NCBI RefSeq assembly: GCF_000715075.1
Contig: NC_134082.1
Location: forward strand, 103,022,399-103,086,398
Direction: 5' to 3'
Length of the DNA: 64,000 nt
Source of the DNA: Nicotiana tabacum
Taxonomy: Eukaryota; Streptophyta; Magnoliopsida; Solanales; Solanaceae
Shown: in pieces, positions 13,260 to 41,807 of the stretch
Layout of the letters: every line of letters starts with the position of its first letter
How positions within the stretch are numbered: position 1 is the stretch's first letter
Notes under the pieces: generated by a model
Seen by the model: only the letters and a program-made list of their open reading frames with translations
Databases searched by the model: none
Told to the model about the DNA's origin: nothing
Position numbers and translations under genes: made by a program

Positions 13260-13980
13260 GTAAATGGCAACTGGAACTGCAGTCTTTTTAAGTTTTTTGC
13301 ATCAAATAATTTTCAAGTCCACTGCGGAGGGAATCACACATTGATACAACTTTAGTCACCGGTGGTGTGCGACATGAGTTCATTTGTTTCTAAGCAGGAA
13401 TCGCGCTCTTATTGTTAGAGGATACTATGTTGAAATTTGATAGTCTTATATGACTTATTCTAAAATCGAATTTCCCCAAATAAAGAAATATATCCTTTCA
13501 TCTAACCACCGGATGACCGGAAGACCTGGCAACTAATCAGTTTTGCTGCATAGAATGAACGGGTCAGCACGATGAAGGGAGTGAGTTGACTGCTGGGCTG
13601 AACTAAGGGGTCGTGGTTACAAGGATAAAAGGATTATAATTTTGAGATAAAATGTGAGATTATTTTATTTTCTGTTTGGTAGAATTTTTGTTCTAGAATT
13701 ATCAATTCCGGGCTTGTTTATTCCAAATTATGGTGTTATTTTTGGTACCATATTTTAAGTGGTCTAACAATTCCAGGATTACTATTCCCAAGATAAAACA
13801 ACATGATACTTTTGCCCTTTTCCAAATATTTTTCTTCCAAAGTCTTTTTAAAGTCAAGGTTAAAATTGAACATAAAAATTTATTTAGGTTCATCTAGTTT
13901 AAAGCAAACTCATATTTTATGTTATACTCCGTATGTTTTATTTTTAGTCCAAAAGGATTAAACATCTATTAATAAAAAAT
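13260..13980. other. Intergenic DNA, possible MITE remnant
   Basis: No gene was found. Between about 13608 and 13900 the phrasing (GGTCGTGGTTACAAGGATAA, CTGTTTGGTAGAA, repeated AATTCC/GGATTA) resembles small non-autonomous DNA transposons of Solanaceae, but I could not pair its ends or find a target duplication. Confidence 0.35.
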
Positions 13981-14108
13981 TTAATACCCTCAAACTCGCT
14001 TAAACTATATAATCTTTGTCAGTTTCCTAAATAAATTATCGTCTGTCCCCGAAAACCTCCTGAGCTATATCCCCCTTCATAATACCCCCCTCCCCACCCC
14101 CCGACAAC

Positions 14109-14117
14109 AACTAAGAG
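14109..14117. repeat. Left 9-bp target site duplication of the MULE
   Basis: AACTAAGAG immediately precedes the left terminus GGGCAATTTGCAG. The same nine bases follow the right terminus at 29291-29299. Nine base pairs is the usual duplication length of Mutator-like elements. Confidence 0.92.
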
Positions 14118-14559
14118 GGGCAATTTGCAGCCGTACCCTATATTTATTCCACCTTTTAACCTATACCCTATTTTTAAAAATTATTGATTTCGTAACCAAC
14201 TAACAAAAAATCCATAATAATATGACCATTATACCCTTCCAAAACATATAAAAGATGCATCAAGCATACCCAGATTCAAATTCCAAAACTCCTTCGTATC
14301 TCTTCCATTGCTCCGTCTCTCCTGAGATCGCCTCTCGCAAATCAGTTTTGAACCAAATTCAAATTCCAAATTCAAAATTACAAAATACATTGCAAGTATT
14401 CAAATTCATCTTCAGAATTCAAAATAATTTTGATTGATTGAAGTTGTTTGACGAACTTCACTGATATGCTGAATTTGCATTCTAAATCTGTTTGACGTTG
14501 AATTCTAACATTCTAATCCGACAAATATGCTGAAAGTTTTGGTTTATTTGCTAAACAAG

Positions 14560-15640
14560 CTGAAGTTATTTAGTTCATATCTAAAAAATTCAGCAAAATG
14601 AGCTGGCAAATAACACAACGAAGAAAAAATTATATTAAAACATTATATGAGTGTTATCGTTGTTTATTTGCTAAACAATCTGAAGTTATTTAGTTCATAT
14701 TTAAAAAATTCAGCAAAACAAGCTGAAGTTTTCCTCCTACACTAGTTAAAAAATAAAACATAAATTAAAATTTCACATTGCTCAAAAACTTAAGCATTAG
14801 TTGCTGAAGTTTTTTACGTAATCTTTAAAAACTTCAGCAATATGAGCTGAAGTTTTCCTCCTACACTGGGTAAAAAAAACATAAATTAAAATTACATATT
14901 TCACAAAAAACTTTAGCATAGGTGCTGAAATTTTTCAGTTAATATTTAAAAATTTCAGCAGGAAGAGCTGAAGTTTTCCTATTACACTGGGTAAAAAAAT
15001 AAAACATAAATTAAAATTATATATTGCACAAAAAACTTCAGCATAGTTTTTTAGTTAATATTTACAAACTTCAGCAGGAGGAGCTGAAGTTTTCCTCCTA
15101 CACTGGGTAAAAAATAAAATATAAATTAAAAAATAAAACATAAATTAAAATTTCATATTGCACAAAAAACTTCAGCACAGGTGCTGAAGTTCTTTAGTTA
15201 ATCTGTAAAAACTTCGGCTGATGGAGCTGAAGTTTTCCTCTCGCACTATGTATTTTATTATCATTTTTTGGAAAAATTTCATACCAAAAAATGCTTATGT
15301 TTTCAGGAATATGTAAAACATTTTTCATATAAATTTTTGTATGCTGAAGTTTTTTTTAGTTCATCTGCTAAAAATGCTTAATATTTTGTCGTGCAATATG
15401 TAATTTTAAGATAAGTTTTTGTTAATTGCTCTGTTATTTTTTAAGTTTAAATAGAATTTTTAGTTCATGCTTGAAAACTCAACAAAGGGAGCTGAAGTTT
15501 TCATCAAGCACTGTGTATTTTATTATGATTTTTTGGAAAAACTTCATACCAAAAAATGCTTAATTTTCGGATTAGTTTTTGTTAATTCCTGCTGAAGTTG
15601 TTTAGTTCATTTCCTCTCCTATTTTTCGAGTTTGAATAGA
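14560..15640. repeat. Tandem array, about 120-bp units each with GCTGAAGT/ACTTCAGC hairpins
   Basis: At least five units carry the landmark TTTTCCTCCTACACT or a variant (near 14730, 14851, 14972, 15092, 15231; spacing about 120-140 bp) next to paired ACTTCAGC and GCTGAAGT motifs. Less regular copies continue to about 15600. The array lies between the left terminus and the transposase and avoids coding sequence. Confidence 0.85.
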
Positions 15641-15754
15641 ATTAATATTAAAAAAACGCACAAAAAACTTAAAATAAAAACTGAATATTTCATTAAACAT
15701 TAAAAAGGATAAATTAAATTACATAAATAACAAAATAAGATTAAAAAAAAAAAA

Positions 15755-15982
15755 CTAATCGTCCATATCATCATCATCATCATCGTCGTCACTACCAGAT
15801 GGACGAGCATCTTCATCAGCAAGATTATCAAATCTTGCATACATCACAAGCGTATCAAGCTTGTTGTTGATTTCTTCCAGCTCCTTGTCGTACTTGTCTA
15901 TGAGCTCATCCAGTTTGAGCTCAAAAGCCTCTATAATGTCTTGCTTGATTTCTTCCACTATTTGACTGATGACAACATTCAT
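15755..15982 (-). CDS. Small acidic coiled-coil-like ORF of the MULE, 75 aa, function unknown
   Basis: I do not recognise a family. The frame is intact, unlike the transposase. Residues 1-50 are rich in E, K, I and L with heptad-like spacing (IVEEIKQDIIEAFELKLDEL), suggesting a coiled coil. The C-terminus is an Asp run (SGSDDDDDDDDMDD). A TATA-like element lies about 75 bp upstream of the ATG on the minus strand, in a motif-free spacer. The minus-strand ORF at 20045-20671 has the same acidic-tail design, so these may be related accessory proteins of the element. The Asp run comes from an ATC/ATG-type trinucleotide repeat, so partial chance origin cannot be excluded. Confidence 0.5.
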   Translation of the reverse strand: MNVVISQIVEEIKQDIIEAFELKLDELIDKYDKELEEINNKLDTLVMYARFDNLADEDARPSGSDDDDDDDDMDD

Positions 15983-16056
15983 TTTTCTCCTTTTTGTATT
16001 TTATGTCTGCTAAAATATATGTGTTTGAGTGAATAAACTCACAAGGTATAGCGTGC

Positions 16057-16064
16057 TTATATAT
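16057..16064 (-). promoter_or_regulatory. TATA box upstream of the 75-aa ORF
   Basis: On the minus strand this reads ATATATAA, followed about 75 bases later by the ATG at 15982. The short leader ends in AAAAAGGAGAAAA directly before the start codon. Confidence 0.45.
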
Positions 16065-16629
16065 GGGAAAAAAACTTCTGCATGGTATATGAAAAGGAAA
16101 AGAAGAATTTTAAACGTTGTCTAATGAAAAGCCTGCATGAATGTGACAGGAATGTAATTATTACACTAACACATACCCCCAACGCAATATAATTACTACT
16201 TTAATTGTATTTGTTATGTTTACTCCTGTATACTATGCAATTAATGCTGAAACATGCTCAAGTTTGTTGAATTCATTTGGTAAAACTTCAGCCCAATGTG
16301 CTGAAGTTATTTAATTCATTTCTAAAGCTTCAACACTTAATGAGCTGAAGTTGTTTTCCCTGCATTCATGAATCCCTGTCATACAGCTTTTTCAAAAAAA
16401 CTTCAGCTGATATGCTGAAGTTATTACGCTTATTTCTAAAAATTTCAGCACTTAATAAGGTGAAGTTTTCTGTGCAGGATTCATTAATTATGTCATACAT
16501 CTTTTTCCAAAAAACTTCAACAGAAGATGCTTAAGTGATTTAGTTCATTTGTAAAAACTTCAGCACAAACAACCTAAAAATTCTTCTGTTCACTTTCCTA
16601 ATACTTGCCACTAAACATGAATTTGCAGG

Positions 16630-19375
16630 ATGAGTTCGATTTGCGTTGTTATAACTTTCAATGGGGGGTGGACTTTTGATTTCAAATACTTGGATCATGA
16701 TACAAAACTTGTTCTACTTAATAAGCACATATCATTCAATACTTTCCTGAAGAAAATTAGTGAAGTTGCAAATATTGATTCAACCATATATGCACTAAAA
16801 GTATGATTTGATATCAAACTAAATACAAGCAAAGGAATGCTTGTAACTTTAGATGAAGAACTCAGTACCTGTATATATTTTCTTACAACTGATTCAGCCT
16901 ACAAGAATTGCCATTTCGCCATCGAAAAAATACAACCTTCAGAATCTGCAGCATTCAAACAATCTCTTGCATATTCGATAGATTCAGAACCTTTTGCTGA
17001 TTATCAACATGAAGTAGGACAACCAATAATGGAAGTAGACAAAGAGCAACAACCTTCTAACATTACAGCTCCTTCAGAATATATAATGATGCAACAATTA
17101 CCCCCTCCTCCAATAAATTCATACTAGTTTGTCGATGACTAAGAAGAAGGACAACTAATAATGCAAATTGACAACCAATATACAATCCAAGAAAGTTTTT
17201 TGTTATCTTCTGCAATGATAAGCAACAACGAAGATGAAGTAAACATGGAGCTTATACCGATAACATCAGATAGAATTGAAGAAATTGCTGAAACTTCTTA
17301 TGCTTCTCAGAAATCAAGAAAAAGAGTGAGGAGAAAGCTGAAAGAATCTCCACTATGTAAAATACTTAGGCACGATGCGTTGCCTGAGGAAGTAAGAGTT
17401 GGATCAATTTTTGAGAACAAACAAAACATGACTAAATTTTTCTGCAGCTTGGAGATAAACTAGAAAGTTGAATTCACTGCTGTTAGATCATGTTCAAAGA
17501 GATACGAGCTGAAATGCATCGTGGACAAATGTGGTTGGAATGTACGTGCTACCAGAATAAAAAATTCCACGCTATTCAGGGTGATAAAATATCATAACTT
17601 CTATGAATGCTCGGTTGATGCAAGAAAATCATATCAGAAGCATGCTACATCAAATTTTATAAGTGAACAAATTATAGAACATGTTCGATACAAAAAGATA
17701 GAGGTTACACTAGCTTTTGTAGAAAATGAAATGAAAAAGAAATTTGGAATTGACATTGGTTATCACAAGGCATGGCGTGCTATTCAAAAAACTATTGCTT
17801 GCATAAGGGGAACACCTGGAGAGAACTACCAGATTCTTCCTTCATACCTACACATGATGGTGTGCAAAAACCCAGGAACGTACACAAGCATAAAAAGAGA
17901 TGAGCAGAATAGGTAAGCAAAACAATACTAACCATCAGCCTGAAGTTTCAAATGTTCCTATTTGAAAAACTTCACACCTTATGATTTATTTTTGTGTGTT
18001 TTACTGTACAGATTTGCTTACATGTTCTTTGCTCCTGCGGCATCAGTAGCTGGTTGGTTCAACTGTAGACCCGTTATTGCAGTAGATGCAACGTTTTTAT
18101 AGTCAAAATATCGTGGTGTTCTATTTGTTGTTGTATCAAAGGATGCAAACAATCAAATCTTTCCTCTATGCTTTGGTGTAGCAGATTCAGAAAACAATGA
18201 GACATACATTTGGTTCTTCAGGGAAATGAGAAAAGCAATTCAAGTCCGTCGTGAACTGGTTTTCTTGTCAGATAGAAACCAATCGATCGCAAATGGGATT
18301 AGAAAAGTGTTTCTTGAAGCTCACCATGGTATCTGCCTCTATCACTTTGAGAAAAATTTAAAGCAAAGACATCCAAAAGCCACGGTAATAAATCTTTTTC
18401 AAAGTGATGCAAGGTCATACAAACGTAAAGATTTTAATCAGTTAATGCCCCAACTCAAAAGTATTGACAAGAAAACATACAATTACATAATGGAAGAGCC
18501 TCCAGAGAGATAGGATCGATCGTGGTTACCACGACGACGTTATGATATGCTAACAACAAACATGGTAGAATTAATGAATTCCGTTTTACTAAAAGGGAGA
18601 GAAATGTCTATTTTAAGGATGTTAGATTTCATCCAAGAAAAGTTGGGAGAGTGGTTTTACGAACGGAGAAAAAAGGCAAATGAAACTTTTCACAGAGTAT
18701 CAATATGGGCAGAAGAAGAGATGACTAAGAAGATAGACTTGGCTTGCAAAATGTTTGTGAGTATATTTATTAACTTTAGCTTTTATATCTGTTGCAGTCA
18801 TTTACTGCTTACATTTAAAAAAATTCATACTTTTTTCTTTTTGAAGCAACAATACACTAATATAGTTTGTCTTAATTTTTTATTCCTTGTTAGGTGTTCA
18901 ACCTTGATTCAATGTTGTTTAGAATAAATAGTGAAGGAATCGAATTCATTGTGGACTTAAAGAAGAGAACTTGTGACTGCCTGGAATTCCAACTTGATGA
19001 ATTGCCATGTCCACATGCAATTGCTGCTATTAATAAGAGATATATCTACAGAAATCTAATTACTTCTCAAATTGGTATTCAAAGGAAACATGGTTGAAAA
19101 CATATGAAGGACATGTGAATACCGTGGGAGATCAAAAATCATGGGATATACCACAAAATGTACAATCTGAGATCACAAAACCTCCCGATGTAGAGATTTT
19201 ACAAGGAAGAAGACAAAAGAAGAGACATATACTTGTGACTGAATCAGTACCATTCAAGTCTACCAAATGCAGTCGATGTAAACAAGTTGGACATAACAGA
19301 ACAACTTGCTTGTCTTCTCCAGCACCTCATCCATATTCCAAGAAACACACTGAAAAATACTCCAACCTTCAATAA
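16630..19375 (+). pseudogene. MuDR-type MULE transposase, broken by stops and a frameshift
   Basis: The reading frame starts at ATG 16630, just after a TTTGCAG acceptor-like site, so an upstream leader exon is possible. Order: an N-terminal PB1-like region (16630-16930), a MuDR-type DNA-binding/DUF region (17395-17660), the MULE DDE catalytic core (first D in VDATF at about 18085, second in FLSDR at about 18270, the CLYHFEKNLK block, then NMVELMNS), a SWIM zinc finger (CDCLEFQLDELPCPHA, 18974-19021) and a CCHC knuckle (CSRCKQVGHNRTTC, about 19268). Introns with canonical borders lie at 17913-18011 and 18757-18893. In-frame stops occur at 16804 (TGA), 17125 (TAG), 17140 (TAA), 17461, 18100 and 18511 (TAG), and the frame slips near 19058. 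It cannot make full-length transposase. Confidence 0.92.
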
Positions 19376-19603
19376 TCCTTGGTCTGAATTTAGACTTTCA
19401 TTATTGTATGACATATTTGAAATGTGATTTTCTTCATAGGAATAAAAAAATAAGCTCTTGGACTATTTTATATACTGCTAAAGTACAAATCACTCATTTT
19501 TGTTGCGCAGGCTTACAGGTTTGGTTGCATTTTAAAAAAGTACGCAATGACTTCTGCGAGAAAAAACTTCAGGTTACAATATGTGAAATACATATCCTTA
19601 ACA

Positions 19604-19634
19604 AACACACACACACACATACACACACGCATAC
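19604..19634. repeat. (CA)n microsatellite
   Basis: A CA dinucleotide run with TA interruptions lies 3' of the transposase; it produces spurious Thr/His and Cys/Val ORFs. Confidence 0.9.
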
Positions 19635-19659
19635 ATGTATAACACACAAAAGAAACGCA

Positions 19660-20040
19660 TGTACAAACAAAAGCTTCAGCATCTCTAAGCTGAAGTTATA
19701 GAAAAAGAACTTTATAACTTCAGCATATTCTCGAATATGCTGAAGTAAACAAAAAAGCACAGCATAAAAACATAAAAAATAATTACAAAAACTAAACATA
19801 AAAACCAACTAAGAAGTATAAAGCAAATACCAACAAATAACAAGGATAATGCAATAGAAAGCTAAGAAGAAAGAGGATGAGAATTACGTTGATATAAAAA
19901 GAGATGAGAACAACGCACAAAGTACAAACAAAACTTCAGCTCTTTGGGCTGAAGTTATACAAAATGAACCTAAAAACTTCAGCTCTCTCGGCTGAAGTAA
20001 ACAAAAAATCACAGCATTAAAACATAAAAAAAGGATTACA
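19660..20040. repeat. GCTGAAGT/ACTTCAGC hairpin cluster between transposase and the 208-aa ORF
   Basis: Pairs of CTTCAGC and GCTGAAG separated by 5-12 bases occur at about 19673/19690, 19720/19738, 19935/19950 and 19977/19991. They fill the spacer between the convergent 3' ends of the transposase and the 208-aa ORF. Confidence 0.85.
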
Positions 20041-20044
20041 AACA

Positions 20045-20671
20045 CTAACAATCATCACCATCATCATCATCACAGTACTCCTCAATTTCTCTAAACTTCT
20101 CATCATCATCAGTATCGGGGATAACTATAGGGTACTCAGCCAAAAGACCACAAAGTCCAACGAGATCATTCTTCAACTTGTTGAATTCATCACACATCTG
20201 ACTTTGTTCGATGATTACTCTGTCCATAAGAGAAAGAAGAGTCTTCAGGTTGTTTTGCAGCTTGGAATAGTCGTCCCCGATGGGAAACTTAAAACTATCA
20301 AACTGCTGCACAACCTTGTCGAACCAGGTTGAATAACCTACACAACTACGTTCCGGGTTAAGCCTGTTCTGGAATGATTCATTGGCAAAGAACTGTGGTC
20401 TGATTCTCTCCCAATCAGCCTTTATTTGATCCCACAAAAGCATAAGATTAGCCATCGGTTTGTTATTGTACCACTCACACTTCAAAGTCTCCCACTTCTG
20501 CATAATTTCATCCATATTAGGCTTCCTACTTCCGCTTGCACCAGATATTTTTTCTTTAACAAAAGCTGAAAGACTAAGGATGAATATAAATTTAAAGAAA
20601 TATGATGGAAGTCTATGAATGACTATGAAATTTTCAAGTGAAGAGATTGTTAATATAGATAAAGAATTCAC
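20045..20671 (-). CDS. Accessory ORF of the MULE with acidic tail, 208 aa, function unknown
   Basis: I do not recognise a family. The N-terminus (ILTISSLENFIVIHRLPSYFF, residues 5-25) is hydrophobic and could be a membrane segment or untranslated leader; an internal Met at GSRKPNMDEIMQKW is a plausible alternative start, and a TCTTTCAG acceptor-like site precedes it. The middle is Trp-rich and helical-looking (WETLKCEWYNNK, LLWDQIKADWERIRP), followed by a leucine-rich stretch and a strongly acidic end (DTDDDEKF ... DDDDGDDC). The frame is uninterrupted, in contrast to the transposase and protease. The leader is repeated at 22291-22510 in front of the captured polymerase fragment. Confidence 0.5.
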   Translation of the reverse strand: MNSLSILTISSLENFIVIHRLPSYFFKFIFILSLSAFVKEKISGASGSRKPNMDEIMQKWETLKCEWYNNKPMANLMLLWDQIKADWERIRPQFFANESFQNRLNPERSCVGYSTWFDKVVQQFDSFKFPIGDDYSKLQNNLKTLLSLMDRVIIEQSQMCDEFNKLKNDLVGLCGLLAEYPIVIPDTDDDEKFREIEEYCDDDDGDDC

Positions 20672-20815
20672 CTAATCAATTTAATATCTATAAATGTAAA
20701 AGTAATTTTTCAGCTGTTTTTACTGTTTTACGTTCAGAGAAATTGAATGAAATAAGATAAGTAGGTGGTAAAACAAGTATGTGGTAAATACAAAAAAAAA
20801 ATGTAACTTCAGCCC
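20577..20815 (-). repeat. Leader/promoter segment, copy 1 of an internal duplication
   Basis: This segment (AAATTTAAAGAAATATGAT, then GAAATTTTCAAGTGAAGAGA, TTAATATCTATAAATG, TTCAGAGAAATTGAATG) recurs at 22291-22510 with roughly one difference per 10-15 bases. It contains the start of the 208-aa ORF and the DNA upstream of it. Confidence 0.85.
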
Positions 20816-20989
20816 TAATAAGCCCATAGTTTTTCTATAGTAAAAAAAATAACTTTAGCCTGAAAAATAACTTTTCGGATCATTTACTATATGGTCAAAC
20901 AAATTTAAATAAAAGATGAAGTAGGTGTTAGAAGACAAAAAGTAGATAGTAAATGCAAAAAAGATAAATATCAACTTAATAAAATACCA

Positions 20990-21290
20990 AAACGTGCTGA
21001 AGTTTTTGTCATAAGCTTTTTCAAAATCTTCAGCCCAATGTGCTGAAGTTATTTAGTTCATTTCTAAAAACTTCAGCACATCATAAGCTGAAATTTTTCA
21101 TCGTGGATTCAATAGTTTTGTCGTGAAGCTTTTTCAAAACTTCAGCCCAATGTGCTGAAGTTATTTAGTTCATTTCTAAAAACTTCAGCACATGATAAGC
21201 TGAAGTTTTTGTCCTGGACTCGATAGTTTTTGTCGTAAAGCTTTTTCAAATAACTTACGCAGAAACTGCTGAAGTTATTTAGTGTATTTA
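20990..21290. repeat. Tandem array, about 111-bp unit with two hairpins per unit
   Basis: CTTCAGCCCAATGTGCTGAAG occurs at about 21029 and 21139, each followed by TTATTTAGTTCATTTCTAAA, then a second pair CTTCAGCACAT-ATAAGCTGAA. Further diverged units follow to about 21390. The same unit recurs at 16285-16560 and 22560-22770. Confidence 0.88.
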
Positions 21291-21625
21291 GTGATGAGTT
21301 GAAGTTTTTATCCTACATTTGACACTTTTGTTATGACTTTTAACCAAAACTTCAGCTTAAAAAGTAGAAGTTATTTACTTCATGCTGAAGTTTAGCATAT
21401 TTGAATCAATCCAAGTCAACTAAAAAACTAATTAATGCGAATAGAAATTTTTTTTAAAAGACATCACATAAATGACACAAAATAATGTATATTCACAAAA
21501 TCCAATTTTGTTTTCACTTACATCCTTGAAAAAAAAAAGAAAAAATTAGTTTTTTGTTTACAAGTTATTCTCTATTCAAAAAATTCCCAGTGTCTTCATA
21601 TTCTCCATAGTCAAATCCTAGTTGC

Positions 21626-21957
21626 TCATCTTGGGTTTCTTAACCACATTCCATGAACCTTCACTATGTCTTCAACTGATTCACAGAAGGGGCAATACGA
21701 GCACCTTACTTTACCACCTTGTACGGACCTTTGAATTACATTTGCCATATTCTTGCATTTTCCACATATGTGCATCTGGGAGGAGTCACTAAGTGTGAAA
21801 AGGCGTCCATTCAAATTCGCTGCAGCACCATGAGCTATAAGACAGTCACGCTCCATTTCACCAAATTTAATTCCACCAAAGCGTTTTCTGTCAGACACAT
21901 GTTGACGAAGTTTAGTACTATGATTTTTTTAGTAACTCCCGTCTTCTTTCATAAGAA
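21626..21957 (-). pseudogene. Captured C-terminal fragment of an RNA polymerase second-largest subunit (NRPD2/NRPE2-like)
   Basis: Open in frame from about 21937 to 21626 on the minus strand, it carries the hallmark end of RPB2-type subunits: [19 protein letters not shown], then [27 protein letters not shown] and the zinc ribbon pair CGKC...CSYCPFC, VEDIVKV. The wording SDRKRFGG and SDSSQMH fits NRPD2/NRPE2, the subunit shared by plant Pol IV and Pol V (RNA-directed DNA methylation), rather than Pol II, which has a GRSRDGGLRF-type block. Similarity stops after VEDIVKV, and the clamp-binding C-terminus is missing. Upstream in frame, before a TAA, KEDGSY...TKLRQH may be a second, non-contiguous block of the same gene. 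This is a transduplicated host fragment inside the MULE; Pol IV/V assignment is from memory of family motifs. Confidence 0.85.
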
Positions 21958-21967
21958 AAAAAAAAGA

Positions 21968-22285
21968 AAATATTGGCAAAGACATGCTTACTGGTGTGCA
22001 GTTGGGAATTCGTAGGAAGCAAAGATAATGAAGGAGAAGTCCAAAATACTTCATATGTGACGGAAAGTGGCCACATCAAAAATTTGAGCCCTAGGAAATT
22101 TGCTCTTTTTCCTAAAAGTTAGATTTATCAACTAGTAAAAAGAGCAAATTGTCTTGGAGCTCAAGTTTTTGATCGGCCACTCTCCTTCACATATGAAGTA
22201 TTTTGACTTTTCCGTCATTATCTTTGCTTTCCATGAACTCCGTGCTACACCCAATAAGCATGTCTTTGCCAACATTTTCTTGTTT
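21968..22285. repeat. Imperfect inverted repeat, arms about 145-150 bp
   Basis: The left arm (TTGGCAAAGACATGCTTA, AGCAAAGATAATGAAGGA, AAAATACTTCATATGTGA, AAATTTGCTCTTTTT) is inverted at 22137-22285 with the same landmarks. The loop is about 25 bases (CCTAAAAGTTAGATTTATCA). It lies between the captured polymerase fragment and the duplicated leader, all of which would be on one minus-strand transcript. Confidence 0.82.
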
Positions 22286-22372
22286 TTCTTTGAATACAAA
22301 TTTAAAGAAATATGATAGAAGTCTATGGATGACTACGAAATTTTCAAGTGAAGAGATTGTTAATATAGCCAA
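22187..22372 (-). CDS. Duplicated-leader ORF of the MULE, 61 aa, uncertain
   Basis: Residues 3-26 (ILTISSLENFVVIHRLLSYF and on) match the N-terminus of the 208-aa ORF at 20671 with conservative differences; then the frame runs into one arm of the inverted repeat (GKDMLIGCSTEFMESKDNDG) and stops. It is probably the 5' part of a chimeric minus-strand transcription unit that continues into the captured polymerase fragment. Whether it is translated is unknown. Confidence 0.35.
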   Translation of the reverse strand: MAILTISSLENFVVIHRLLSYFFKFVFKEKQENVGKDMLIGCSTEFMESKDNDGKVKILHM

Positions 22373-22510
22373 AGAGTGAACCTAATCAATTTAATATCTA
22401 TAAATGCTGAAGAGATTGTTAACTGTTTTTTGTTCAGAGAAATTGAATGTAACAAGATAAGTAGTTGGCAAAACAAGTAAGTGGTAAATGCAATAAAAAA
22501 ATAGTAAAAA
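22291..22510 (-). repeat. Leader/promoter segment, copy 2 of the internal duplication
   Basis: This is the partner of 20577-20815. It lies upstream, on the minus strand, of the inverted repeat and the polymerase fragment, so the captured sequence is placed behind a copy of an element-encoded leader. Confidence 0.85.
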
Positions 22511-22559
22511 ATAAGGCCACAAAAAGTAGGTGATATAGGTGAAACACATGCTAAAGTTC

Positions 22560-22850
22560 GTAAAGCTTTTTCAAAAAACTTCAGCCCAATGTGCTGAAGT
22601 TTTTTAGTGTATTTATAAAAACTTCAGCTCCTGATAAGCTGAAGTTTTTGTGTTGGATTCAATAGTTTTTTCGTACAACTTTTTCAAAAAACTTCAACCC
22701 AATATGCTGAAGTTTTTAGTGTATTTCTAAAAATTTCAGCACTTGATAAGCTGAAGTTTTTGTCCTACAATCGACACTTTTGTTATGACTTTTAACCAAA
22801 ACTTCAGCTTAAAAAGCAGAAGTCGTTTACTTCATGCTTAAGCTTTTTCA
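22560..22850. repeat. GCTGAAGT/ACTTCAGC hairpin array, third block
   Basis: Two and a half units of the about 111-bp repeat (CTTCAGCCCAATGTGCTGAAG at about 22579; a mutated copy near 22695), ending in ACTTCAGCTTAAAAAG, which also ends the block at 21350-21370. The block therefore belongs to the same internal duplication as the leader. Confidence 0.82.
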
Positions 22851-23006
22851 ACAAAAATGTACTTAAAATTCATGATAAAAGACACAAACATATTTGTATG
22901 AACAAAAGTGAACTAAAAAAATAATTAATGTATATTCACAAAATCCAAATTATGTGAAACCAATCCTCTAATCAAAAAATTCACACACAGTCTCTTCAAA
23001 ATATCC

Positions 23007-26000
23007 CTAATCATGTCCTTCTTGTTCTTCTGGAGTTTCATAGCTGCTATCTTTTTTCCACTTTCCATGAGCCCAAAGATTGGCAGCCAATTCTCTCATG
23101 AATGTCAATGACTGACTTTGATCGAAATTGAAGACATCTTCTTTCTTCAACGGCATATCAATTAACTTAAGAGCAAATATACCACAATCAACAATACAAA
23201 AAGAACATGAAAAAGAAATTGAAGAATAGTTAACACAAGGGCAAAAAATAATAAACATCAGATGCATCGTAAAACATATGCGAAACACGTACTTGTTAGT
23301 CTGCTACGGTGTGTTCATCCACTTAATTTGAAAATATTCCACAGGACGTTTCCCATAAAATCTATTGTGTGCCCCAAAATCCAAGCATTTGAGATATGGG
23401 ATCAACCGAGCATAATTTCTGACATGTTCAAGCGCACGTTCATATGTTACACTGCCCATAGAATCATACACATATATAATCTTATCTTTAACGTCCAGAA
23501 TTCCAAAAAAGTAGTGCATAGATGTCTGGCCCATCCTTGGCTTAAGTCGAAATGGAAAGAATACTTTTCTGGCAGATGCCCATGAGATACCACAGGAAAG
23601 GTCGAGGCATTTTATGTAGTTGGCCACCTTTTCATTCGTTAATTCTTCCTCAAACCAACTAAAGTCTGTAAGTGGCTGAATAACTGCTTCTTCTTCTTCA
23701 GCCTGTTGTTTGGATATCCTCTTTCTCTTTGATTTGCTCTTTTTTTGATCATCCATTCTCTTTTGCTTCATTTTTTTAATTATCTCCATCTGTTATACTG
23801 AAAGATGAATACCAGCCAGCTTAGTCATATACTGATCAAAAAGTAAATCTGTTACTGCACATTTTGATTTTGGATAACCTGAAAGGTGATAGCAGTATTC
23901 TTTGCGCAAGTAATATATGCCCACTTCAATATGCTGCAAATGAACAACAACAAATGATAACATGTGAAATAACAACTTCAGCATGCATAACTATGAAGTT
24001 TAGAAAAAATGCATTACAAAACTACAAACAGCATGACGAAAACTTAAGCATATTCAGTTTGAAGTGTTAGGCTGAAGTATTAGCAAATAAGCTAAAAAAC
24101 TTCAGCAGTTTACTATGAATAAAGTTGATGTTTTCAAATTACAGTACAAAAACTTTGCTATGAAAAATAAGCTGAAGTTTTGGGAAATACAGTTGAAAAC
24201 CAATTTAAAAAACAAACTTAATAACTTACTTCATTCGCAAGATCAGAGTTAGGATCCATAAGCTCGGTAAAGAATGATTTTGCAATATCAACTCCAGCTA
24301 ATCTGAATCGATTGGAATCATATTCACTAGCATCCATCTCCAACCACTCTGTAAATCTTTGCATCAATCCATTGTCTTGATTAACATAATGGAAGGGACA
24401 CCTTCGTGTATTCTTTCCTACTTTCCAATCTTGACCCCTTTGCTTTTGTTTATGAACTACGTAAGGAGATCTCAACCAAATACTCTCCATACGAATCTTT
24501 TTCCCTTTTTTATCTGGTTTTCCTTTTGCTTACTCTTCCTGCTGTTCCGTCACAACTAACTGCTGTTGTTCAGCAGCAGGGGGGAAACCACAGCCATTGT
24601 GGCAGATGCTTGACCAACTCCCTGCTGTTCACGATGTTCTTATCTCTCTTCACGAACAACAACATCAACAGAATTACCTTCTGAATTAGTCCCTTGTGTA
24701 CTACCAAGTGAAAATGAACATAAATTAAAGTTGGAGATATCACTGGTGTCACACATAGGAGAACTGGAAATCTTCCTTCTCTTAGGATTTGGAAGAAGTT
24801 GCGATGCATCAGATGAGATCTGCAAAAACAAGGAAAATATAAACATAAATAAAACTTATACAAAACACACAAAAAACAGTTTGTAATCGAACTACAGAAA
24901 ATAACTATCTGGTCTAAGTGTTGAAACACAGATAGTGTTTGCATTCCACCAGATCCTGTATCTTCATGCAAAAAAAAATATTGACTAAATTTTATAAAAT
25001 AATACCAACACACTTCACACCTGTCTGTGAGGCAACATGTGTGAATATATGTATTTCTCCTTTTTGATATAGCTGCATAAGCTCACCAAATTCTTTTTGA
25101 GCTGCCTCGAGTCTTTCTGAAAAATCATTCAAAAACATAACAAAGAAAATAAAGTATGTAAAATTTCAAACTGTAAAAAATATACTTCGATCAAATATAA
25201 TAAATTCATGATCTATAGAATACCTTGATGTTTGTCTTCCGTTGTGGTTTCCCCAGGCTACATGCCTTTCACGATATCAGCATTTCCAGCTTTATTCAAT
25301 TGTGAACCAACGTCGAGGAGCATTGGAGTATTCTCTGGAAGGTTTTTCTCAACTCTACCTTCATTCAATTCAGCATCATCAGAGAGTTTTTGAGTTGTGT
25401 CAATTGAAGCACAACTAGTTTCAACTTCCACTGCATATTCATAAAGAGGGGGAATTGATCAACTAGTTTTTCTATATATATAACATAGAAAAAATTTATA
25501 CCTATAGTGAAAATTTCACTACAGGATATTATAAAAGAACAGTCAAACTTCAACTCTAAGAAGGCTGAAGTTTGCCAGTCACAAACAAAAACTTCGACAG
25601 TTTAAAAAAAAACTTCAGCTCTAGAGCTGAAGTTCACCAATTACAAAATAAAACATTCAGCAAAAAAAACATGCTGTAGTTTTTACAAAAAACACAAAAA
25701 ATGAAACAAAACTCCAGCTCCTATCTAAGGTATCATTGAACTATTATAAACTTCACACTTTATACTTGTAGTAACAATTTCCTGTGTATCACCACCTAGA
25801 AGTTCTTTGCAAATAGCTAGTGCTCCTGCATACCGATCGTCTTTCCCAATAGTGCTAGACACATCACTCGCTTTCAGTTCTAAAGTACCAACAGGTCCTT
25901 GATCTCCATCGCCAAATAAATTACCTTTTGCAATATCACTTTCCAAAGCACAACTCGGTGCATGTTTTTCAGTACCAACAACTTGATCATCTGCACCTTT

Positions 26001-28361
26001 CTCAGTTGCTAACTCTTCATCATTTCTATCTTTACTTTATCTACAAACACTGGATTGTTCCTCTCCACCTTGTTGTTGAACATGTTCATCGCCTTCAACA
26101 GCCGATTCCTTACGTGTAGCATTATCATCTGCGACTTTACGCAATGCATCATGAGCAGTATGTTCTTCAGTCTCAACAACTTGATTATTGGCACCTTGCT
26201 TGCTTCCAATATTCTCAGTTGATAATTGTGCTTCATCATTTCCATCTCTGCTCAATCTATCAGCACTGGAACGTTCCTCTTCAACTTGTTCTTGAACATG
26301 TTGATCGCCTTCAAAAGCCGCTTCCTCACGTGTAACATTTACATCTACAACTTTATCTGATGCATCATCAACAACATTAATATCCGATGGATGTTCGTAA
26401 CAGACATTCACCCTATCATATTCTCGATGGTTACTCAAATCGGTTGATCGCCTTCAAAAGCCGCTTCCTCACGTGTAACATTTACATCTACAACTTTATC
26501 TGATGCATCATCAACAACATTAATATCCGATGGATGCTCGTAACAGTCGTTCACCCTATCATATTCTCGATGGTTACTCAAATCAAAATTGTCATAGTCC
26601 ATTCCATTTGATTTGTTGATAATCTTAACCAACTGTTCAAACTTCTCATCGAAATATTCCTAGAAAAATAATTACTAACAATGATTAATCTGAATAACAT
26701 CAGCAAAAATAAAAAGACTTCTCTATAAATTAGCTTACCTTCACTTTTATAAAAACCGCATCCACAATAGCAGATCGCTCCTCCTTTTTAAATTTATTGA
26801 AAACTTCTTTCACGATCGTGCTTCTTTCTTTTTCTGCATGCCTTTGAACCTCCATCGTTAACCTCTAGAATAGACACACAACAAAAATTCAGATATAGAA
26901 GAAAACTTCAGCTCAAAAATATGTTGTATTTTTACAACAAAACCAAAAAACTTCAAATCAAAACTTACAGAACATATTGTGTCGAGTAATTCATTGTCAT
27001 CAAAGTCAGTTGTAGAATGGTTAGAACGACTCTGGATACGAGATGATTTATCAATAAAATGAGTTCGATTCACTTCTTTTGATCGACTTCGACTACGTGG
27101 TGATTCACCAATAATATGAGTTCGATTCACTTCTTTTGATCGACTCAGAGTACGTGATGATTCACTAGTTGAAGGAACCACGTTAAGTACCTTTGAACGA
27201 ATCCGGGTGCATGGTGATTGTCCAATTAAAGGCATTGAATTCAATTCTTCTTCTGTAGGAATTATTTCCAATACCTTAAAGTTACGATATCTCTGTTTAA
27301 TACAAAAAAGTATATTATGAGAAGAAAAAAACTAATACGTCAACATATTAACACAAAGACAAAAAAAGTAACTTACTTCATGACTACTGAACATATCAAA
27401 AAGTTCGGGAAATTTAGGCTCTCCCACACATACATAACGTAACATCCTGGGAACCTGAGGGGTATCAAGGTACTCATCCTCTCTTATATACTTCTCCCGA
27501 ATATCTGGGAAGCGCTCATAGAACCAAGCACATAACGGATATGGAAATCCACCAAGTTTATACTCAGTTGAACGTAATTTGTTCTGCTTGTCCAATACAT
27601 GTTTTAGTGAGTAAATGAGCTTCTCATAAGCCACATTACCCCAAGGATATTCACCACAAACCTTATCATCTTCAATAATAGATGCATACTCCTCCATCAC
27701 AAATGACTCGGTCTTTTTCCCAAACAAAATAGACTCTACAACAAGAATTTTCATAAGTTTCACAGCATCATCATCGCTCTCTCATACGTGTATGTGATTC
27801 ACAACATTCTTTGGAATTTCATTCCGAGTCATAAAATCTCGAATATCCTTCAAAATCACACCCTTGGACTTACCAAAATAGCGCTTCAGAATATTGCTCT
27901 CTCGATTAATTGGTTTTTTCAACATTATGTGTTGTGATCCGCAAACCGCACATAATGTGAAAATTTTCAAGGGTGAAGGAAACATCATGGCCAAAAATCT
28001 TGAAACTAATGGAGTCTCGATCATTGGTGAATATTCTAGAAAGACACAGACAATGAGCCACCTTCTTGCTGTATTTGAAATTCTCTATATCCATAATGTA
28101 TCGAAATGTACCATTATTAAGCTTATCCAGTTGTGTAGGAGTCAAGAAATTTACAATTAAACTCTTCAAATCGTGGTTCCCCTTCTAGTAACCCTTACAG
28201 TTAAACTAATCTCGAAACTCAAAATATCTTTGCTCTGGTCTTGTAGGTGGAGGAGCAGTGACATAAGGACCTGGAGGTATTATAGGTTGTCTAGGTGCTT
28301 TAGGTTGTCTAGGTACTTTAGGTGCAATTTGTTCAAAAAAAGTAAAATATACAAAAAATAA
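23007..28361 (-). pseudogene. DUF1985 plus Ulp1-like C48 cysteine protease gene of the MULE, broken
   Basis: Read right to left: a Pro-rich lead (PPGPYVTAPPPTRPEQRYFEF) with two in-frame TAGs; DUF1985 (28169-27379; FKIFGHDVSFTLENFHIMCG, YKLGGFPYPLCAWFYERFPD) with a frameshift near 27930 and a TGA near 27783; exons with SRSKEVNRTH repeats (27291-26969) and an acidic repetitive linker (26632-25730); a helical exon (24490-24230); then the Ulp1 domain (23933-23007; IEVGIYYLRKEYCYH, catalytic-type His in SMHYFFGILDV, Asp in IYVYDSMGS, Cys in VDCGIFALKL). Exons end with good GAA|GTAAGT donors (24230, 27377). A TAA at 23795-23793 and a TAG near 23288 interrupt the protease, and the acceptor before VDCGIF lacks AG. 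Ulp1 proteins remove SUMO-like modifiers; the role in MULEs is unknown. Exact exon borders are tentative. Confidence 0.85.
26303..26584 (-). repeat. Recent tandem duplication, unit 143 bp, in the protease-gene linker
   Basis: The copies 26303-26445 and 26446-26584 both start GATCGCCTTCAAAAGCCGCT and end GATGGTTACTCAAATC; I see only a few differences (e.g. ATGTTCG/ATGCTCG). As 143 is not a multiple of three, the duplication shifts the reading frame of the linker. Older, more diverged copies of the same module lie at about 25960-26300. Confidence 0.9.
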
Positions 28362-28410
28362 CATCAAGACATTATCAAAAAGATCAGTTAAAATTTCAAT
28401 CTCTAAGAAG

Positions 28411-28600
28411 GCTGAAGTTCAACAGTTACAAAACAAAAACTTCAGCTCTAGAGTTGAAGTTCGATAGTTACAAAACAAAAACTTCCGCTCTAGAGCTGAA
28501 GTTCGATAGTTACAAAACAAAAACTTTAGCTCTAGAGCTGAAGTTCACCAGTAACAAAAACAAAAACTTCAGCTCCTAAAGCTGAAGTTCACTAGTTACA
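28411..28600. repeat. Tandem array, 42-44-bp hairpin units near the right end of the MULE
   Basis: GCTGAAGTTC or GTTGAAGTTC starts at 28411, 28453, 28495, 28537 and 28581 (steps 42, 42, 42, 44), each unit containing CTTCAGCTCTAGAGCTGAAG-type palindromes and GTTACAAAACAAAAA. A shorter stretch of the same unit lies at about 25550-25640, and its reverse complement forms the core of the small element at 41003-41807. Confidence 0.9.
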
Positions 28601-28609
28601 AAACACAAA

Positions 28610-29290
28610 ACATTTCAGCAAAAAAACATGCTGTAGTTTTTACAAAAAACAAAACACAAATTCAAATCCAAAAATAAATGCCAAAACATGAAAAAAACTT
28701 CAACTCCTATCTAAGGTATCATTATTTTAATAGTATCATCTATTTAACTCTCAAAATTTTTAAAAATTTGGACGTCTAATCACTGAAGAATTTATAGAAT
28801 TTTCATCAACAACATAAAAACTCGTTCAAAAAACCTAAAAACACAATCGTAAAAGTAAAACTAATGCACTTATCAAACTAAAACCCTAAGAAACTATTTA
28901 ATCATAAATACATGACTATCAAAACCAAAACCAGAAATCGTAAAATAAAACCTAGAAAGTTAATGCAATGTGGGAACAACGATTGTGTTCCCAATCGTAA
29001 AATACCTGTGATTAAATCGTAATGTGGGAACAACGACGACTAGCAGTTGAAAAATCAAAACAACGACGAAAATTGTTTTATTTCAGAGAAGAACAAATCA
29101 AAAAACGCGAATAACGGGAGAGAGAGACAGAGACAGTAGAGGACTAGCGTATACTTGGAGAGAAAATAGTCTTTTAATAAAGAATGACAAAATAGTCTTT
29201 TTAAAAGGCTTTTCACATAAAAACAGGTACGGGTGCAAACATAAAGACAAAGCGGCTACGGGTTAAAAAAGGGCACCCTGCAATTTACCC
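28610..29290. other. Right subterminal region of the MULE, no gene
   Basis: AT-rich DNA with two copies of AATGTGGGAACAACGA (28967 and 29030), a CTCTCTC/GAGAGAG-rich leader-like stretch (29110-29165) and the right terminus. It probably holds the promoter and 5' leader of the minus-strand protease gene. Confidence 0.5.
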
Positions 29291-29299
29291 AACTAAGAG
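29291..29299. repeat. Right 9-bp target site duplication of the MULE
   Basis: AACTAAGAG follows the right terminus and is identical to 14109-14117. Confidence 0.92.
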
Positions 29300-30154
29300 T
29301 TAATTAGCCCCCTTTTTTCAAAACTTATATTTTCTCCTCTTTTTCTTTATATCACACCTTTCTTCTCCATCTTTTCACCTTTCTTCTCTATTTCTTCATC
29401 TTAATCCATTTGAAATTCTCTTTCTCTTGTTATTATTGAGTTTATTTCTTATCTTTCTCATTTTATCCATCCTTCATTCTTACACAAATTTATTTGAAAG
29501 AAGGAACACAAAATCCCCAACAAAAAGGAAAATGCATAAAACCTTTTTAACAAAACACAATGGTACCCAACAAATATTTCTTACTCGTCTTCTCTGTTTC
29601 TTACCCAACAAATATTTGAATACTTATTCGTCTTCTCTGTTTCTGTTCTTCTTCTTCTACTGATAAAAATCACAAATCTAAAATCTCAATAAACAATTAC
29701 AAAACCCTAGATATAATCCCGATTTCGAGTAGCAACAACAATAGATAGAGAAATTGATGGTAAAAACCTTGATTAATGAAGAGAATTGCTACTTAGAGTA
29801 GGTGTCTCTCATTCCCAATGAGAGAATTTTTCCGATGAGAGCAACACAACCATACTTTGAGAGTTAAATACGGACAAAATCCCCTTTTTATTTTTATTTT
29901 TTTCACGTAATTAGATTAACATATATTAGTTAAGCATGTTTTTAAGATTAACGCAATCAAATATCCACGTGGATTGCCACATGGAAGGTTTTAAAAATTA
30001 TTTAGAGTGTGTATCATACGCACTAGTAAGGATGAGACGGGGGGGTATTTTAATATGAAGGAGGATATAGTTCATGGGAGTTTCGGGGACAGGTGATAGT
30101 TTAGGTAGGAAACTGACAAATATTGTATAGTTTAGACAGGTTTGATGGTATTAA

Positions 30155-30746
30155 CTCTTAATAAAATTATATATTGATTAATAATCTCTTCAATATTTAA
30201 CTCATGTAAAATACTATAATATAATTTCAGTATAACTGGAGGCGAACTCACCCCAACGGTAGGAGGCCACCGGCCCTCGATAACCTCGGGAGAAATGTGC
30301 GTATTTATTTTGGGTATATATTTGAATTGGCACCATAAACTACAAAGGTATGACACCTGCATTGGTTGATTTGGGTGAACAAGACATTTGATTCCCACTT
30401 CAGCATACCAAAAAAAAAAAATTGACATTAATGATAATGGTGCAACTCCCACTTTTAAATCTTGAGTCCGACTCTTGATCATAACTTGTTCACAAATCAA
30501 TATAAAAAGGACAGGCCAGCGGGAACACAGAAGCCGCGCTATCTCGCTGGCATGTTTTGGTTTGTTTTGTGCTGACTTTCATATAAATTTTTGTCTACTC
30601 CAAGTCCTTGCTCCGTACAAATCTTGTCCCTTTCAGATTTTGCAATTTCCTGAGAAATAGATGCCGAAATAAATCGTTGAAATGCTTGATAAGCATAAAT
30701 GAAAAACACGTTCTGTACTTTAAGAGGAAAAACGAAAAACACCTTG
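30155..30746. other. Intergenic DNA, no gene supported
   Basis: An A-rich run near 30410 and a stretch with TGGTGCAACTCC and GAGTCCGACTC (30437-30475) faintly recall tRNA-derived SINE promoter boxes, but spacing and ends do not make a convincing element. No ORF is credible. Confidence 0.4.
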
Positions 30747-40522: not shown

Positions 40523-41002
40523 GGATACAATTTTTCCAAAAGGGAACTTGTTAGATGAACTAATTATGTTCTTTCGCTTTTGGTTAGCTTTATTTTGCAG
40601 TACATTACTCGAGTAACATTAAAAAAATTATAATGAGATTATCGTTGGCTTCTTATTAGGTTATAGTGGTCTTTTTCCAATTATATGCCTATGGTTCATA
40701 AACTTATATGCTAGAAAGAATTTGAACCCTTTTTGATCGTGCATTAATCAATTTTGATAATTAAAGAGGCATTGGTTCTTTCAGCACATTTCTGATAAAA
40801 AGTTTGTGTTTCAGTTGTGAGCCTTAATAGATAAAGTAAAGGGAAGTTGACAAATGATAACTAGTCATAAATTATTGAAGAATGGTCAGGTATTTTCTCC
40901 CTTCTGCCTAGTGCCCAGGGATACTGGTCTGTACATCCATTGGCATTCTGGCCTAAAGTGGGTTTCCCACTGTTGGTGGAGCCCTATATACCACTTTCTT
41001 TG
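40523..41002. other. 3' region of the 53-aa gene and intergenic DNA
   Basis: AT-rich, no ORF of note. The right edge (40994-41002, CTTTCTTTG) is the target duplication of the adjoining small MULE. Confidence 0.5.
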
Positions 41003-41807
41003 GGCATTTGCATCTATATCCGCCTTTTGTGTCACGGTTTAATTTGTGTCCGCTTTGCAAAAAAAATTGCAAGCGTACCTATTTTTTTGCATAACTTCAG
41101 CATACGAGGCTGAAGTAGCAAAAACAATCATGCAAAACTTCAGCATTCTAGTAGACGAGCCTAAAGTAGCAAGTGTGCTGAAGTTTTTGTTTTGTAACTG
41201 GCGAACTTCAGCTCTTTTATTTTTGTAATTGACGAACTTTTGTAACTCGCGAACTCAGCTGAAGTTTTTGTTTTTGTAACTGGCGAAGTTTTTGTTTTGT
41301 AACTGGCAAACTTCAGCTCTACAACTGAAGTTTTTGTTTTGCCTTAGCTATTAATTAATAATACAGGCTGCAAACAACAGTGAATTCCAGAAACTTAACT
41401 ACTGAAGGAAGCATATTCCAAACCAGTTCAAGATAGTAGACGATTTGCGTGAAGAAAGGACGTAAAAATGAACTAGCTTGCAAAAATGTAAATACACGGT
41501 CCCACTGTTACCATCTAACAAATCTATCTATGCACAATCCAATCCAAAGCAGATAAAATAGGGAAAATTTCACATAAGAACAATTGGGCTCCCTACTTTT
41601 CAATTTTATAGCCCATATTTATGGAAATCATCCCATGAACTGAAGTTCCATAGCAGCACCAACAGCAGCAGAAGAAAGAAGAAGAAAACGAAGGAGAAGA
41701 AAGGGAGCTGAAGTTATTTAAAAAATGGGTACAAGTTAAAAGTTTTTAAAAAAATGGGTATAGGTTAAATGGGGACGACCAAATAGCGCGCCCCGTGCAG
41801 TTTTTAC
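41003..41807. mobile_element. Non-autonomous MULE relative, 805 bp, with GCTGAAGT repeats
   Basis: The left end is GGCATTTGCATCTATATCCG; the right end, inverted, is GTAAAAACTGCACGGGGCGC followed inward by TTTAACCTATACCC, a phrase also found just inside the left end of the 15-kb MULE. Flanking nonamers CTTTCTTTG (40994-41002) and CTTTCCTTG (41808-41816) agree at 8 of 9. The core (41085-41345) carries ACTTCAGC/GCTGAAGT motifs spaced by TTTTTGTTTTGTAACTGGCG, the reverse complement of the 42-bp units at 28411-28600. There is no coding capacity. Confidence 0.75.

Follow-up and report, generated by a model that had tools for sequence, protein, structure and literature searches.

An NRPD2 fragment at an internal duplication joint of a decayed VANDAL/KI-like MULE in Nicotiana tabacum is probably a neutral passenger

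A Mutator-like element (MULE) of 15,173 bp (~15.17 kb) in Nicotiana tabacum carries on its minus strand an 84-codon piece of NRPD2, the second-largest subunit of Pol IV and Pol V. The window analyzed here is a stretch of 64,000 nucleotides (contig NC_134082.1, positions 103,022,399 to 103,086,398), and all coordinates below refer to it. The arrangement is probably that of a VANDAL/KI-like MULE of a Solanaceae genome that underwent an internal tandem duplication, received a piece of host NRPD2 and a fold-back element where the two copies join, through transduplication or as filler in break repair, and decayed afterwards, with the NRPD2 piece now drifting neutrally as a presumably non-functional passenger. 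The route of capture, the order of events, and the lack of function are inferred. As judged from the sequence, the NRPD2 piece is best read as a host gene fragment captured in the ordinary way by a MULE that is now decayed; the chance that it is something more is low. The features on which this reading is built are collected in Table 1.

Table 1 Features of the MULE and of the captured NRPD2 fragment (window coordinates)
Feature	Position	Strand	Basis
Left TSD, AACTAAGAG	14109..14117		Exact plus-strand search
MULE	14118..29290		Short imperfect TIRs GGGCAATTTGCAG / GGGTAAATTGCAG, TSD on both sides, PF10551
Transposase gene, decayed	17161..19375	+	PF10551; translation with stops
Body of 208-aa ORF (residues 42-208, acidic tail)	20045..20548	-	Two N. 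attenuata relatives
Duplication copy B (order as in copy A; its Ulp1 tail borders the fragment on the 3' side)	20580..21650	-	Self-alignment
Captured NRPD2 fragment, 84 codons (RQH...VKV), most of Rpb2 domain 7	21656..21907	-	Pfam, PDB, protein comparisons
Spacer between fold-back and fragment, with in-frame stop upstream of fragment	21908..21957	-	Translation, window comparison
Fold-back (near-palindrome), 330 bp, 18-nt loop	21958..22287	-	Self-complement alignment, RNA fold
Duplication copy A (tail of Ulp1-like gene, ACTTCAGC arrays, region upstream of 208-aa ORF)	22290..23070	-	Self-alignment
DUF1985 and Ulp1/C48 peptidase-like ORFs	23007..28169	-	PF09331, PF02902
Right TSD, AACTAAGAG	29291..29299		Exact plus-strand search

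The original prediction had placed a piece of the Pol IV/Pol V second-largest subunit in a MULE and proposed its comparison with RPB2, NRPD2/E2, and NRPC2. Both the assignment and the location hold. The minus-strand ORF 21626-21898 matches the Pfam family RNA_pol_Rpb2_7 (2.1e-19), and among the best 60 of 70 matches to PDB chains Pol IV/V subunit 2 ranks on top with 115 and 113 bits, compared with 55 bits for the top Pol II RPB2 and 40 bits and less for Pol III; a Pol II or Pol III origin of the fragment is rejected on these scores. Full-length NRPD2 of N. attenuata, aligned to the window via tblastn, matches 21907-21656 with 92% over 84 codons (E 5e-42), and a second NRPD2 query reaches 21653. 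The other matches of the N. attenuata protein in the rest of the window have E values of 4.9 or more, and no further NRPD2 copy in the window is significant, residual matches having E values of at least 1.5 (protein) or spanning 12-14 nt (DNA). N. attenuata NRPD2 is likewise the top match in the protein collection (E 3e-42, 92%; best 120 of 1004 matches), sharing 77 of the 84 residues, followed by four more Solanaceae entries with 76, and the lowest value among the ten compared is 69, for Capsicum. Among the polymerase subunits, NRPD2 is accordingly the one nearest to the piece, which lies inside the element, as expected for transduplication. Clear homology is absent before RQP and after VKV, the piece being truncated at both ends; NRPD2 proteins go on after VKV with a conserved VPYGAKLLCQELFS C-terminus, which is missing from the fragment. 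At the opposite edge, CGTCAAC is preceded by CTT, by eye not a splice acceptor, which makes an exon border exactly at this place unlikely. All four of the paired cysteines are kept, and we take them to be zinc ligands. The capture of a host NRPD2 piece by the MULE is real.

The element itself is well delimited. The exact 9-bp TSD reported earlier was recovered, since AACTAAGAG occurs just twice on the plus strand of the whole window, once per MULE end, and has the length of about 9 bp typical of a Mutator-like element; the terminal sequences GGGCAATTTGCAG and GGGTAAATTGCAG are alike in 11 of 13 bp in inverted orientation. The MULE transposase domain PF10551 scores 31.1 bits in Pfam against a cutoff of 27.6 (3.3e-07), and the transposase frame contains three in-frame stops in stretches that are open otherwise. 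On the minus strand, similarity to PF09331 (DUF1985; 1.6e-06) amounts to 28.6 bits, under the Pfam cutoff of 35.1, and PF02902 (Ulp1, as in the KI type; 1.4e-04) scores 22.2 bits, over its cutoff of 20.7; these ORFs presumably form a single multi-exon gene. No Rfam family matches the window when gathering thresholds are applied. Two further observations concern the surroundings and content of the element. Sequences at 13913-14090 and 30040-30223 form inverted flanks (70% over 184 columns), from which the MULE seems to be nested in another terminal-inverted-repeat element. A small minus-strand ORF at 15740-15982 has, by eye, an acidic Asp-rich end and a setting resembling that of the 208-aa ORF, and it is perhaps a remote sister module of the latter.

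In Arabidopsis VANDAL elements, VANC proteins are shown with a DUF1985 domain, and the target of their anti-silencing activity consists of tandem repeats of a short noncoding motif (PMC5735166, PMC10398659); KI (Kaonashi) elements are presented with an Ulp1-bearing version of VANC in PMC13317346. The tobacco MULE resembles these elements by its Ulp1 domain, its sub-cutoff DUF1985 similarity, and noncoding tandem repeats of one short motif. It differs from them in the motif, which here is ACTTCAGC, and in its short TIRs, VANDAL and KI elements being described as non-TIR MULEs. With 11 of 13 bp alike between its inverted ends, the tobacco element is not of the non-TIR type, and we therefore file it as VANDAL/KI-like and claim no membership. 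ACTTCAGC is found 73 times in the window, compared with 1.8 occurrences expected from shuffles, 60 of them in the MULE and 13 elsewhere. When coding blocks were set by hand (5,931 of the 15,173 bases of the MULE), 59 of these 60 fell outside them, and the motifs form arrays, often in tandem as in the VANDAL targets, at 14.5-15.6k, 16.3-16.6k, 19.7-20.0k, 20.8-21.4k, 22.6-22.8k, 24.0-24.2k, and 28.4-28.6k. By analogy with VANDAL elements, any anti-silencing by this MULE would likelier involve the DUF1985/Ulp1 gene and the ACTTCAGC arrays than the NRPD2 piece. Outside the MULE, eight ACTTCAGC motifs are clustered at 41000-41800. This second cluster shows local matches of 68-88% to the arrays at 25.5k and 28.4k of the MULE and, by eye, a GGGCATTTGCA end; it is possibly a small non-autonomous relative.

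Self-alignment reveals a tandem duplication within the MULE, and the fragment lies between its copies A and B, hence at the duplication joint. Copy B is followed by the 208-aa ORF; copy A is followed instead by the fold-back, the 50-nt spacer, and the NRPD2 fragment, which directly joins the Ulp1 tail of copy B. A duplicate of the leader of the 208-aa ORF had been described before. The upstream region of this ORF is indeed duplicated (22291-22431 vs. 20581-20721, 86%; 22419-22502 vs. 20719-20802, 88%), and the duplicate is larger than described, extending over about 23070-22290 and 21650-20580 and including the Ulp1-like tail, while the term leader probably does not stand. Among 74 candidates, two relatives of the 208-aa ORF were identified, both in Nicotiana attenuata, and their alignments begin only at residue 38 or 42, at which MSGASG in the relatives stands opposite ISGASG in the window ORF; the residues of the longer relative upstream of the aligned part are unrelated to the ORF. 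The first 41 residues of the window ORF are therefore probably 5' noncoding DNA. One N. attenuata entry (P0165) has an unrelated N-terminal part fused to the start of the protein of the 208-aa ORF; this part is Copia gag-like by eye, all its Pfam matches having E values of 0.15 or above, and the entry may be either an annotation artefact or another chimera.

Over longer alignments, copies A and B agree in 77% of 408 columns and 68.5% of 600 columns, and their best parts diverge by 10-14%. The seven replacements that separate the fragment from N. attenuata NRPD2 are in keeping with some 9 random substitutions over its 252 bases, which, set against the divergence between the copies, would suggest that the capture is younger than the duplication, although sequences of these two kinds do not lend themselves to strict comparison. 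The inverted repeat expected upstream of the fragment on the same strand is present: 21958-22287 is 82% self-complementary over 334 aligned columns, and the predicted RNA fold of 21945-22300 reaches -198 kcal/mol (z -24), with none of 100 shuffles equally stable. No convincing TSD that would mark the fold-back as a MITE flanks it, the best flanking repeat (TCAAAGAA/TGAAAGAA, with one mismatch) being one of several chance-like matches, and the spacer at 21908-21957 has no significant relative within the window. The fragment is in sense orientation relative to the presumed promoter. With what is presumably a copy of the promoter on one side and the presumed 3' end of a gene on the other, it looks like part of a transcription unit, an arrangement that counts against a mere passenger.

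MULEs are known to carry host gene pieces, as stated in PMC13317346, and a host gene piece between MULE ends with a TSD is what Pack-MULE transduplication yields. The present case differs from it in that the element is large and has its own, decayed transposase, and in the location of the piece beside a fold-back, at the joint of an internal duplication. Literature searches, which covered a minority of subscription papers and no bioRxiv preprints, turned up no account of NRPD2 capture among the titles and abstract starts compared (20 of 91 and 10 of 25 papers) and no paper naming both Pack-MULE and NRPD2; the one paper that combines NRPD2 with Nicotiana and pseudogene deals with Arabidopsis telomeres. 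The chimeric tail of the fragment is absent from all 43 short related proteins, as it is from the total of 165 proteins compared (the best 120 of 1004 matches, these 43 short relatives, and the two relatives of the 208-aa ORF).

Coding capacity and conservation of the fragment point to relaxed constraint. Reading from 22520, every in-frame AUG that precedes the fragment runs into a stop before reaching it, and the open frame offers only a GTG at 21898. Not until the internal Met of MERDC at 21856 (76 codons) does an in-frame AUG lead to the fragment end free of stops, and 10 other AUGs lie ahead of it, between 22520 and 21857. We defined conserved columns as those conserved in at least 94% of 120 NRPD2 proteins, for which 56 of the 84 columns qualify. 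The fragment departs from NRPD2 at six of these 56, one departure affecting a Glu present in 120/120 NRPD2s. Among the same 120 proteins used as controls, 74 show no departure, 30 show one, ten show two, four show three, and two show four, low counts being favored here because the columns were picked on the control set itself. Random placement of the seven replacements relative to N. attenuata over the 84 columns would put 4 to 5 of them in the 56 conserved ones. Judged by this comparison, the departures are the pattern of a sequence that would no longer be under constraint. The open frame was considered as a sign of constraint and rejected: with the fragment itself as the starting sequence, and substitutions only, no indels, 7-12 random substitutions introduce stops in 25-37% of simulations and leave the frame open in 63-75%, so that an open frame is unsurprising. 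Still, the kept cysteine pairs speak in favor of recency or some constraint, and both they and the kept frame count against the passenger reading. We nevertheless prefer the passenger reading because of the truncation, the departures at conserved columns, the lack of an upstream AUG in the open frame, and the transposase stops.

The source of the fragment could be different from a working NRPD2 gene, namely an NRPD2 3'-end pseudogene family that had already multiplied in Nicotiana, which we consider unlikely. Three N. attenuata proteins among the 43 short relatives (P0130, P0143, and P0144), annotated as RNA polymerase D subunit 2b, have one common odd end, YMVQ..., which at the protein level and by eye reads as the normal NRPD2 end in a shifted frame. 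This common, apparently frameshifted end suggests a multiplication of broken NRPD2 3' ends in Nicotiana, in favor of such a source. The derived residues of the three proteins are, however, absent from the fragment (by eye), and the fragment ends before the frameshift site. At the adjacent changed sites of the fragment (GP of GPYC), P0130 and P0144 have one change each, to other residues.

The original prediction further envisaged a conflict with host silencing, in which siRNAs from the locus, or a decoy peptide, would act against the silencing machinery. As a silencing suppressor, the locus would produce, from the upstream copy, a transcript comprising the hairpin and the sense NRPD2 piece, and hairpin-derived siRNAs would trigger transitive siRNAs lowering host NRPD2, in parallel to miR820 and OsDRM2; we regard this as improbable. 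It would be in keeping with the order of upstream copy, hairpin, fragment, and gene tail, with the high stability of the hairpin, and with the 77 of 84 residues common with NRPD2, which make long identical nucleotide stretches likely. There is also a precedent: as given in PMC3459959, the precursor of miR820, carried by a rice CACTA element, is highly similar to parts of OsDRM2, from which it is possibly derived, and this miRNA cleaves OsDRM2 mRNA. Both cases have in common a transposon with sequence related to a silencing-machinery gene. In rice, however, the hairpin itself is target-like, whereas in the tobacco MULE the gene piece lies apart from the hairpin, both being known from sequence alone. 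The hairpin at 21958-22287 has no significant match to NRPD2 in a comparison that covered the protein, so that target-gene coding sequence was not found inside the hairpin precursor as target sequence is for miR820, and primary siRNAs would have no counterpart in the coding part of NRPD2. In addition, neither a significant antisense nor a second copy of the fragment exists within the window, and the transposase is decayed. Mu killer of maize is another hairpin tied to a Mutator element; according to PMC3440606 it combines transposase and end sequence in an inverted duplication and, in contrast to a locus directed at NRPD2, silences the transposon itself. The more specific version, a MULE-borne RNAi trigger with a duplicated promoter, a diced 5' hairpin, and transitive siRNAs lowering both Pol IV and Pol V, has a slimmer chance still. 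The sequence thus lends no support to the envisaged conflict, the fragment being truncated and in sense orientation and the transposase interrupted by stops. Least probable is a decoy, a translated Rpb2-7 zinc domain competing in Pol IV or Pol V assembly, for which the frame is open and the cysteine pairs are retained, but which would have to be made from a frame with no upstream AUG and only a GTG at 21898, with 10 other AUGs and the hairpin before the internal AUG, without the conserved C-terminus, and with the invariant Glu and other conserved residues replaced.

A decayed element with a passenger NRPD2 piece is thus the reading that the sequence favors. The locus is of interest beyond it because NRPD2 is common to Pol IV and Pol V, so that all of RdDM would be weakened by a transposon able to lower it. 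That conflicts between transposons and silencing exist is shown by miR820 and OsDRM2 in rice, and a MULE copy with an NRPD2 piece is a concrete candidate for such a conflict. If true, the RNAi trigger would be another case beside miR820/DRM2, put together from a hairpin placed beside a captured piece of an exon and not from one inverted gene piece. For the Solanaceae, the MULE is a likely relative of the VANC/KI anti-silencing elements, with ACTTCAGC as a clear candidate motif.
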